Below are positions 7,645 to 61,876 of a stretch of DNA of 64,000 nt, in pieces (position 1 is the stretch's first letter; each line of letters starts with the position of its first letter). This DNA is from Methanosarcina horonobensis HB-1 = JCM 15518. GTDB taxonomy: Archaea > Halobacteriota > Methanosarcinia > Methanosarcinales > Methanosarcinaceae. Where the stretch lies: assembly GCF_000970285.1 (NCBI RefSeq), contig NZ_CP009516.1, positions 3,389,036 to 3,453,035 on the forward strand, read 5' to 3'. The notes beneath the pieces are model-generated. The model was not told the origin of the DNA. It made no database searches and saw only the letters and a list, made by a program, of their open reading frames with translations. A program made the translations under genes and the position numbers.

Positions 7645-8454
7645 TTATCGGGATTTAAGGTCAAAAATCATGTTTGCAACACAAGCAAGCTCTTCAGGAG
7701 TGAGGTTCTCGGCTCTTTTGCTCATAAAACCTTCAGGGAGCTGGTTTACAACCTCTTTAACGTCCGGGATTTTGAGCATATAATTGGTGTTCAGGATTGA
7801 GTTCCTGAGCTTTTTCCGGCGCTGGCTGAAAACTGCAGCTACAAACTCAAGGAAAAAGGCTTCATCGCGGACCTCGAAAGGAGCAGGGCGGGGAACCAGT
7901 TTGACAACTGCAGAATCGACCTCAGGGGCTGGCTGAAAGGCTCCTTTTGGGACTTTCATGAGGATAGAGGCATCAGCAAAATAATAGGTATCAACCGTGA
8001 GGCGAGAATAATCTTTACAGCCCGGAGGAGAGACCATGCGGGCTGCAAACTCGTACTGGTACATGAGAATTCCGAGTTTGAATTTATGGTGCAGGAGCTT
8101 AAAGGTGATTTCCGAAGAAATTGAGTAGGGGAGGTTTGAGACAACCTTATCAAACTCCGGGAATCTGACTTTAAGAGCATCGCCTTCTATAATCTCTATG
8201 TTCTCGACAGTATCAAAACGGTCATGCAGGACTGAAATAAGGGCAGGATCAAGTTCGACCGCAATTACCTTTTTTGCTCTTCTTGTAAGCCTTTCGGTAA
8301 GGTTTCCGATTCCCGCACCTATTTCGAGAACCGTATCCTGAGGGCTCAGTTCAGCGGCAGCAACTATCCTGTCCAGGTAGCCGGTGTCAATAAGGAAGTG
8401 CTGATCAAAAGTGCCTCCTTTTATATTGTATTTTTTAAGAATAGAACGAACCAG
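7645..8454 (-). CDS. rsmA: 16S rRNA dimethyladenosine transferase
   Basis: 269 residues, KsgA/Dim1 family, which dimethylates two adjacent adenines near the 3' end of 16S rRNA late in small-subunit assembly. The order is GGTFDQHFLID, the SAM motif EIGAGIGNLTERL, then VSNLPYSISSEI (the NLPY catalytic motif) and the C-terminal helical domain (SQRRKKLRNSIL). The frame is coherent upstream to an in-frame TAA, yet contains no ATG, GTG or TTG before residue 131. The family start (VRSILKKYNI preceded by Met) falls on a CTG at 8454-8452. An AGGAGG ribosome-binding site lies eight bases upstream of it. I therefore place the start at CTG; starting at the first ATG (8064) would delete the catalytic core. 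Confidence 0.9.
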   Translation of the reverse strand: MVRSILKKYNIKGGTFDQHFLIDTGYLDRIVAAAELSPQDTVLEIGAGIGNLTERLTRRAKKVIAVELDPALISVLHDRFDTVENIEIIEGDALKVRFPEFDKVVSNLPYSISSEITFKLLHHKFKLGILMYQYEFAARMVSPPGCKDYSRLTVDTYYFADASILMKVPKGAFQPAPEVDSAVVKLVPRPAPFEVRDEAFFLEFVAAVFSQRRKKLRNSILNTNYMLKIPDVKEVVNQLPEGFMSKRAENLTPEELACVANMIFDLKSR

Positions 8455-25080: not shown

Positions 25081-25234
25081 AAAGCCTGATTTTAGATAGT
25101 ATAATCAAACAGTTTTTATGGACTATCTCACATCTTTATCTCACAAATTGAATTAGAAATAAAACCCTCAAGAGATAAATTTCTGGTAAATAAACAGAAA
25201 CTCCAGGTGAAAACAGAAACTCAGGTGATGAAAA

Positions 25235-25624
25235 TTGTCAAAAAAACAGATATTCCTCATATTACTTATTGCGTCCACTCTTATGGCTTCAGGCTGTACA
25301 GGCGAGGACGGAACAAAATTATCAATTTCAGGCAATGATACCGAAATAAATATCAGCCTCTTCGATCAGACTGAAGACAACTGGTGCCCTGTCGGTTCCC
25401 AGGTTCAGGTAAAAAACCCCACTACAGGAAGAGCTCTGAATATGACAGTAACAGGCACTAAAGAGTTCGAAAACGAAACCTTTTGTAAAGCCGTAATAGA
25501 AACCGGAAGCGAAGAAAATACCAGCAAATTTGAGTACATGTGGTCATAGGACAAAAATACCACGGTCTGGACAAAATACGATGAGGAAGGAAAAATATCA
25601 TTGAGATATGTACACAGAAAGTGA
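25235..25624 (+). CDS. Small lipoprotein with an in-frame UAG, candidate pyrrolysine protein
   Basis: The frame opens with a signal peptide and lipobox (LMASGC). The mature part has two cysteines (DNWCPVG and ETFCKAV). After FEYMWS it meets TAG at 25547-25549. The same frame continues without a break as DKNTTVWTKYDEEGKISLRY and ends at a TGA (25622-25624). The extension has the alternating, charged character of a final beta hairpin and continues naturally from the sequence before it. Methanosarcina decodes UAG as pyrrolysine, so a 129-residue protein with pyrrolysine at 105 is likely; the alternative is termination at 104 residues. The function is unknown and it is probably membrane-anchored outside. 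Confidence 0.65.
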
Positions 25625-25779: not shown

Positions 25780-25935
25780 TTAATCCAGCTTTTCTCCCTC
25801 TACATAACATCCAAAATAGGTGTTTTGCTCCACTTTTTTAAGGACACTGTTGATGCTCTCCAGTGTAGCTTCTATTTTTTCCATTCTCTTTTCGATCTCC
25901 TGCAGTCTGGTAAGAATCTCCTTATCAGTATTCAC
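25780..25935 (-). CDS. Small coiled-coil protein
   Basis: 51 residues with a GTG start, eight bases after a GGAG site. The body is a heptad-patterned helix (LTRLQEIEKRMEKIEATLE, then INSVLKKVEQN) with a short tail containing one cysteine and ending at a TAA. Coding pattern and ribosome-binding site support it. The function is unknown; it may oligomerise or cap a larger partner. Confidence 0.55.
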   Translation of the reverse strand: MNTDKEILTRLQEIEKRMEKIEATLESINSVLKKVEQNTYFGCYVEGEKLD

Positions 25936-46162: not shown

Positions 46163-47125
46163 TCAATTCTTCCCAAAAAGCTCTCCCAGCATATCTTTTG
46201 AGAAGTGATACTCCCCCTCGATCTGCACGGAATCAGGGAGTGTTCCGAATCTGTTCATAAGAAGAAGTTCGCCTATTTCTTCCTTCATGACCCTGCTGAC
46301 CCCGAATATTGAGGCTGTGGGTCTTGGATTTACATCCACGACATAAGGAAGATCGGAAAGCACAATATCCACACCTACATACCCGAAGCAATCAAGGCAT
46401 TTTACTGTAGAGATTGCAGCCTCATAGAGTTCGTCTTTTCTGGAAGTATGATAAGGGGTAAGGCTGCCGTTATATTTTATACCCGAAACCCCGGTTTCCT
46501 CAGGATTTTTTCCTTCCCTTCCCTCTTTTTCATTAAACTCGATGAACTGGCGGTTTACAGTAAGTGGAAGCGGCTTTTTTCCTGCAATAAGGCTTACGCT
46601 CAGATGTTCCCCTTCGATATATTCGCTTGCGATGAATTCCCCGGAATTTTCGAACTCTGTAACCAGATATGTTGCCTCTGCCCCGCACCCGAACCTTGGC
46701 TTTAGAACATACTTTTTTCCCTCTTTGGCTTCTTCAGCAATCTCAGGAGCATTAATTCCCGCTTTTTTCAGGATTTCCGTACACAGGAGTTTGTCTGCAC
46801 AGCATGCTGCAGATTCAGGAGAGCACCCCAGGTTTACGGTATTCTCTTCAAGTATCCTGTTCAGTTCAGGAAGCATTCCGTCGGGAGCAATAAGCAGTCC
46901 GGCATCACACTTTTTTGCTTCCCGTTCAATTACCTGCCTGAAGTTCTCAGCCGTTGATCTCAATGCCGTACCTGCACCTATTTCCACTCCCGCAGCAGGA
47001 TAATACACCTCATGTCCTACACGGACAAAGCTTTCGGCAAGCGTTTTCAACATAGCTGCCCCTTCAGGGATAAGGGACTTTTCAATATCCGTACCTACAG
47101 CGAATTCTGCAATCAGGATTTTCAT
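46163..47125 (-). CDS. mfnD: Tyramine-L-glutamate ligase MfnD (ATP-grasp)
   Basis: 320 residues with the ATP-grasp fold: YVLKPRFGCGAEATYLV (ATP loop), FIASEYIEGEHLSVSLI, and the metal-binding end GVDIVLSDLPYVVDVNPRPTAS. It joins the gamma-carboxyl of glutamate to tyramine in methanofuran synthesis. It is the first gene of the mfnD-mfnF-mfnE series on the minus strand (gaps 93 and 82 bases). The ATG lacks a clear ribosome-binding site, as for a first gene on a short-leader transcript. Confidence 0.87.
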   Translation of the reverse strand: MKILIAEFAVGTDIEKSLIPEGAAMLKTLAESFVRVGHEVYYPAAGVEIGAGTALRSTAENFRQVIEREAKKCDAGLLIAPDGMLPELNRILEENTVNLGCSPESAACCADKLLCTEILKKAGINAPEIAEEAKEGKKYVLKPRFGCGAEATYLVTEFENSGEFIASEYIEGEHLSVSLIAGKKPLPLTVNRQFIEFNEKEGREGKNPEETGVSGIKYNGSLTPYHTSRKDELYEAAISTVKCLDCFGYVGVDIVLSDLPYVVDVNPRPTASIFGVSRVMKEEIGELLLMNRFGTLPDSVQIEGEYHFSKDMLGELFGKN

Positions 47126-60762: not shown

Positions 60763-61264
60763 TGCAACAATATTTAAACTGATGATTTTAATACAGAGTC
60801 TGAAAGTCTCTTCTTAAATTATATTTTGAAATTTATATTCCATCAGTAAACCTTTTTCTGTGTTTTGCTTTTATTGCACAGATCTTCTTTTCAGGAAGAT
60901 AAGATTCGAATTCAGATTCACTCATTTAATAGAATTACTCTTTTGAATAGTTTCCACAATTAATGTATTTATCTAGTTTAAAGTTATTGGCTCTACTGGA
61001 CCGACGCATCCAGTATAAGATATTATTCTGGTCACTTTCTATTGTTATATAAATTATTTATATAATATCCCTATAAATTATATTTTTGCCTTTTAAGAAA
61101 AATTACCATGCTTCTTTTTTTAGACACATACATGATTAAAATTTGCCATTAGTTACTCAAAAAAGGCAACAACTTTGAACCACCGGTATAGTGGCACGGC
61201 TCTTTTTTAAATATACCTCCACCCTCTCCAGGATCTGTTTTTTCTTTGACTCCGGCCTGAAATT
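60763..61264. other. Intergenic region with a short hairpin
   Basis: About 500 AT-rich bases. TACTGGA (60994-61000) and TCCAGTA (61009-61015) form a perfect 7-bp stem. TATA-like runs occur around 61040-61080. No coding frame was seen. On the minus strand, downstream of the TetR gene, the frame past its TAG stop is open for about 35 codons, from 61264 to about 61160. Confidence 0.4.
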
Positions 61265-61876
61265 CTAATCACTCCTTTTTACGATGTTCTCTGCCAGGAG
61301 ATCAATAAGAATATTCATAATTTCCGGAAAATCTTCATCTTCAATTTCATTCCTGAAATGTATAAGGGAAAGAACTGCCTGTGTAGTTTCGGCAAGGATA
61401 CGGGCTGGTTTATCTATTAAGAGACCCGAAGCTGCCCACTCTTCAAAGAAAGGCAGAATCGTTGCCACATTATCTCTGCAAATCTTTTTGATTTCTTCCT
61501 CTGAAGACCGGGAGATTTTCAGTTCAAGATGCTCCTTCTCAATGAAAACTTTTCTCCAGATCGGGTGGTTATTAACAATATGAAGCACATACTGAAGATA
61601 AGCTCTGATAGCTTTATCGGGTTCGGTCCTGTATTTCAGGAAGGAATTTTCGAGTATGCTTTCCCTTAAAGCTTCCCGCTCTTCTTTAAAGATTTGGAGA
61701 AAGAGATCCTCTTTGCTGTCGAAAAAGGAGTAAAAAGAACTTTTCGCAATTCCCAGGCCCTCAGTAAGGTCCTCGATACCTGTTTTTTTGACCCCATATC
61801 TGGCAAAACAGTCTTTCCCTCGGTCCATAATATTTCGCTTTATGATCTCTCTTTCTTCATCTGTAAAGGATCTCAG
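61265..61876 (-). CDS. TetR/AcrR-family transcriptional regulator
   Basis: 203 residues if started at the CTG at 61876, giving (M)RSFTDEEREIIKRNIMDRG. The helix-turn-helix is DLTEGLGIAKSSFYSFFDSKEDL. Starting at the first ATG (61828) would remove part of helix 1. No ATG, GTG or TTG lies between that ATG and the upstream TAA, while an AGAGGTGAG site lies three to four bases before the CTG. The stop is TAG, the pyrrolysine codon here, but LAENIVKRSD is a normal end for the family, so plain termination is likely. The ligand and targets are unknown. Confidence 0.88.
   Translation of the reverse strand: MRSFTDEEREIIKRNIMDRGKDCFARYGVKKTGIEDLTEGLGIAKSSFYSFFDSKEDLFLQIFKEEREALRESILENSFLKYRTEPDKAIRAYLQYVLHIVNNHPIWRKVFIEKEHLELKISRSSEEEIKKICRDNVATILPFFEEWAASGLLIDKPARILAETTQAVLSLIHFRNEIEDEDFPEIMNILIDLLAENIVKRSD

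Follow-up and report, generated by a model that had tools for sequence, protein, structure and literature searches.

The window, that is, the whole stretch of 64,000 nucleotides of Methanosarcina horonobensis DNA analysed here, carries on its forward strand a small lipoprotein gene whose reading frame is crossed by one TAG codon and which is laid out as follows.

25224..25229, + strand: ribosome-binding site GGTGAT, read from the sequence, 5 bases upstream of the TTG start
25235..25621, + strand: lipoprotein coding frame, 129 residues with UAG as sense; homologues in 28 of 60 relatives
25235..25297, + strand: signal peptide and lipobox (LMASGC, Cys21), function assigned from the motif
25547..25549, + strand: in-frame TAG, codon 105; CAG in the nearest relatives, GAA, GAG or AAA elsewhere
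25550..25621, + strand: tail of 24 codons after the TAG, with the last two predicted beta-strands and W112, T113, Y115 and G119
25622..25624, + strand: TGA terminator of the full frame, read from the sequence

Translation of 25235-25624 on the + strand meets a single internal TAG only, and together with the homology described below it bears out the preliminary description of this DNA, in which the frame was said to cross the TAG as one gene and to end at the TGA; the coherent tail noticed there also stands, except that it counts 24 codons and not 25 residues. The TTG is taken as the right start because the same TTG, with the same GGTGAT ahead of it, is found in orthologues, among them L002, L003, L004, L005 and L009. 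The N-terminus consists of a hydrophobic stretch followed by the lipobox LMASGC, of which G20 and C21 are invariant across 31 aligned sequences, so by its N-terminal hydrophobic signal, lipobox and Cys the product is an archaeal lipoprotein, whose lipidation is predicted. Searches against Pfam and NCBIfam gave no match above cut-off for the protein and place it outside the methylamine methyltransferase families MtmB/MtbB/MttB, and the sequence search for solved relatives found none, the best E value being 0.11 and covering the signal region only. In the fold search with the predicted model, the best Foldseek E value was 0.073 and the best VIA-align Z, with an OspA-like sheet and phage coat proteins, was 6.0; a widespread beta arrangement can give scores of this size, and no fold family is claimed.

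Homologues were searched for in 60 relatives and matches were obtained in 28, in each of which the best match runs past the TAG site, a stop at this place being present in the window copy only. Alignment with orthologues had been proposed earlier as a check of readthrough, with a stop here in every orthologue as the outcome that would refute it. In the alignment made here (A1, 31 sequences, the window gene and 30 homologues) none of the 30 homologues stops at codon 105: all have a sense codon for Gln, Glu or Lys and continue in frame, seven near relatives having CAG, most of the remaining sequences GAA or GAG, and one AAA. The nearest relative, Methanosarcina sp. DH2 (L002, found also as L032), is 81% identical and reads TGG TCA CAG GAT where the window gene reads TGG TCA TAG GAC, which amounts to one C-to-T transition in codon 105. 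Its locus has the same neighbours, namely a histidine kinase upstream, a conserved short frame and an NTPase downstream. In a search of the genus covering 31 genomes, a TAG at position 105 was absent from all 19 other genomes with a match; the codon is thus private to this species, and this speaks for neutral drift. An intact lipoprotein paralogue elsewhere in the same genome has GAG at the aligned position. Within this paralogous lipoprotein family, one member in another Methanosarcina genome (L065, G027:C1:221698-221967) has an internal TAA. Beside the lipoprotein gene, a frame of 51 codons on the - strand (window 25780-25935) shows coiled-coil-like heptads, and the relatives L032, L006 and L003 conserve this stretch beside their own copies of the lipoprotein gene, so that it is probably a real small gene.

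Open stretches of at least 20 codons after the stop are frequent here, being found behind 29% of the genes that end in TAA and 28% of those that end in TGA, so the open frame after the TAG means little alone. The tail is not a chance continuation, because all 30 aligned relatives have a C-terminal part that is homologous to it at the level of single residues; in the 31-sequence alignment Y115 is invariant and W112, T113 and G119 are near-invariant. The dN/dS values of the tail are 0.13 against L002, 0.04 against L003 and 0.06 against L006, and only one private amino-acid change is found in the tail of the TAG-bearing gene, whereas three sister species have three apiece. Without constraint on the tail for the full length of the terminal branch, some 15 changes are expected (P(<=1) ~3e-6), although this test is blind to a TAG that arose within about the last 0.3 of that branch. 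By this comparison, the tail would either be still translated and constrained or have lost its use very recently.

The AlphaFold2 model made from the alignment has a mean pLDDT of 74, with 91-96 for residues 51-60, 71-90 and 101-129, 88 for 61-70 and 73 for 91-100. It is a beta meander with strands at 56-60, 67-78, 81-90, 97-104, 109-115 and 121-128, in which codon 105 sits in the turn after the fourth strand and the tail supplies strands 109-115 and 121-128 with pLDDT above 90. According to the model, a product truncated at the TAG would be without two of the six predicted strands, that is, one third of the sheet. In addition, relatives extend about 20 further residues at the C-terminus; judged from the alignment, this end is already shortened once in this clade and some loss there is tolerated.

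The genome has the genes for reading UAG as pyrrolysine, as the preliminary description had assumed for the organism. A tRNA-Pyl with anticodon CTA (CUA) lies at G000:C1 4853461-4853532 and is followed by frames with the order and size of pylS, pylB, pylC and pylD, of which the PylC domain scores over the Pfam cut-off, while PylS, PylB and PylD are assigned by order and size only. Furthermore, two mtmB and three mtbB genes are present, each with exactly one in-frame TAG. In a stop-codon survey of 20 kb stretches (1.26 Mb in total, about a quarter of the genome) TAG was the terminator of 23 out of 832 scored ORFs, under 3%, some of these being themselves sense TAGs; in the first sample it terminated 6 of 256. 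Several TAG-ended genes have a short or non-coding continuation, and TAG does also act as a stop in this genome. A TetR-like regulator on the - strand of the window (61157-61828) is TAG-ended and its next 35 codons look non-coding, so this TAG is probably a stop; a TetR cluster has been reported among amber-interrupted ORFs (PMC3639795). The double use of UAG as sense and stop in such archaea has been reviewed (PMC2933860), and in Methanosarcina acetivorans a reporter with an introduced amber codon gave 20-30% full-length product, which contained pyrrolysine (PMC2933860), an efficiency from which most passages at an ordinary UAG are expected to terminate.

The account that we consider probable is that of an intact lipoprotein gene in which a recent CAG-to-TAG change is tolerated through partial decoding as pyrrolysine, so that the gene would give a long and a short form at nearly no cost. 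The TAG would have arisen from a CAG glutamine codon on the branch leading to this Methanosarcina species. As pyrrolysyl-tRNA(CUA) is made in the cell, some ribosomes would insert pyrrolysine as residue 105 and complete the 129-residue protein, and the others would stop at the UAG and release a 104-residue form. Since residue 105 lies at a turn between strands that accepts Gln, Glu and Lys, the change would be near neutral, and such a TAG could have drifted to fixation. The observations are the TAG itself, homology that runs across it, sense codons at this place in the relatives, a set of pyl genes and the rarity of TAG as terminator. From these we infer the insertion of pyrrolysine at residue 105, its efficiency, the two forms and the neutrality of the change.

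The main rival to the pyrrolysine reading is true truncation: the TAG would be a real stop made by a recent nonsense mutation, the protein would have 104 residues and the tail would be a relic yet to decay. It draws on the TAG being private to this species and serving as a stop elsewhere in the genome, on the earlier loss of a C-terminal piece in the clade, and on the fact that a TAG dating from no earlier than about the last 0.3 of the terminal branch would leave the tail looking conserved though untranslated. Against this, truncation would delete two of the six predicted strands together with the near-invariant W112, T113, Y115 and G119, and the UAG codons of mtmB and mtbB are read as sense in this cell, so some full-length product is to be expected by default. 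On balance we regard true truncation as unlikely.

Pyrrolysine outside the methylamine enzymes is already known from Thg1, the tRNA-His guanylyltransferase of M. acetivorans, in which it was physically seen at a non-essential place and for which the UAG occurs in that species only (Heinemann et al. 2009, as reported in PMC2933860). The lipoprotein resembles Thg1 in that it is a non-methylamine protein with one in-frame UAG, in one species only, where relatives have a sense codon, and the position concerned is non-essential in Thg1 and probably so here; the difference is that pyrrolysine was shown physically in Thg1, whereas in the lipoprotein it is predicted from the sequence. In each respect open to testing by sequence the lipoprotein fits the drift-type description of Thg1, and by this analogy it is probably a further example of neutral codon drift. 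The Thg1 gene of the present genome itself has no internal stop. MtmB and MtbB (PF05369 and PF09505) likewise have an in-frame TAG in the same genome, where it is read through, but theirs is a conserved feature of the family, whereas that of the lipoprotein is confined to a single species and stands in place of Gln, Glu or Lys. The gene also belongs to the same class of candidates as the amber-interrupted ORFs listed for pyl organisms (Have et al. 2013, PMC3639795), for which those authors too name neutral drift as a source (PMC3639795). To pass their pipeline an ORF needed 100 bases downstream of the UAG as well as homologous UAG regions (PMC3639795), and the lipoprotein, a single gene whose tail has 24 codons and whose relatives have sense codons only, would be missed by it.

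In the first 464 kb, a coding-potential survey found no excess of long continuations after TAG over those after TAA or TGA, though without homology this survey is blind to tails as short as that of the lipoprotein. Over the 1.26 Mb, the TAG-ended ORFs with a coding continuation included mtbB, which served as the positive control, the lipoprotein, a PAS/GAF sensor kinase, a DUF389-like gene and a gene whose protein family we take to be DUF5996-like. The last (L122, G000:C1:2147654-2148661) has TAG where its orthologues have CAG, CAA or AAA, followed by a homologous tail of 20 residues, and from this comparison it is probably a second species-private case of Gln to TAG. The DUF5996-like copy of a further Methanosarcina genome (G014) contains a TAG too, at the same or a different position. 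For the DUF389-like membrane protein gene (TAG at G000:C1 2647145) readthrough was ruled out, since its later parts lie in other frames and the gene is decayed; an open frame after TAG is therefore no proof of readthrough.

The PAS/GAF sensor histidine kinase (loci L110 and L134) has its in-frame TAG in the second PAS domain, at G000:C1 4124389. The TAG is kept at the same codon in 16 of 16 close orthologues from two genera, the mean divergence of which at fourfold-degenerate sites is 0.50, and only 16 of the 140 other amino-acid-invariant codons are invariant at the codon level in these orthologues; CAG stands at this position in more distant homologues, which come from four genomes of a different genus. 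Its sequence conservation makes the kinase a strong candidate for pyrrolysine conserved outside the methylamine enzymes, and the kept TAG suggests that selection is able to act on such codons. A survey in 2013 named a sensory transduction histidine kinase with an in-frame UAG in M. acetivorans, M. mahii and M. barkeri (PMC3639795), which may or may not be the same gene as the kinase at 4124389. Thus one genome holds two classes of TAG, one private to the species (the lipoprotein and probably the DUF5996-like gene) and the other, in the kinase, kept across two genera. The idea of an unusual or special user of pyrrolysine, attached to the lipoprotein by the preliminary description, finds no support, since its TAG is private to the species, the genome has other non-methylamine genes with TAG as sense and Thg1 is documented (PMC2933860); of that interpretation, the single gene across the UAG and the presence of the pyl genes are retained.

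Selection for the UAG itself was also considered, either because pyrrolysine at residue 105 has a job of its own or because the balance between long and short lipoprotein follows the supply of pyrrolysine and so reports growth on methylamines. The points in its favour are general only, namely that UAG decoding depends on the pyrrolysine supply and that the sensor kinase of the same genome keeps its TAG in all 16 orthologues. Speaking against it, the lipoprotein TAG is common to no relative, position 105 tolerates Q, E and K, and none of the neighbouring genes was recognisable as a methylamine gene. Moreover, no unusually stable stem-loop of the PYLIS type lies right after the UAG (z -0.97; 30 of 200 shuffles fold equally well). 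Selection is consequently very improbable, and its form as a supply-sensitive switch, in which ample pyrrolysine during methylamine growth would put the six-strand domain on the surface and its shortage would leave the truncated form, is more doubtful still; if it were true, the composition of the cell surface would follow methylamine metabolism. An error of base calling or assembly, with CAG as the true codon, is just as hard to credit, for although the TAG is one base from the CAG of the nearest relatives and is known from the assembly of a single strain only, the genome is complete in a single contig, the frame is otherwise clean, one base is substituted whereas errors of long reads are typically indels, and the change yields TAG and not TAA or TGA in an organism tolerant of TAG.

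The drifted glutamine codon, as we read it, makes the lipoprotein a clean and testable case of a UAG drifting into an ordinary protein of an archaeon that uses UAG both as a stop and for pyrrolysine, with the CAG still present in the nearest relatives, and an annotation of the gene may easily end at 104 residues. The sensor kinase is a better place than the lipoprotein to seek a function of pyrrolysine outside the methylamine enzymes. Elsewhere on the - strand of the window, coding frames of 276 and 203 codons stand in phase across a single TAA near 7645, and frames of 326 and 360 codons across a single TGA near 46163; both pairs may be adjacent or interrupted genes.
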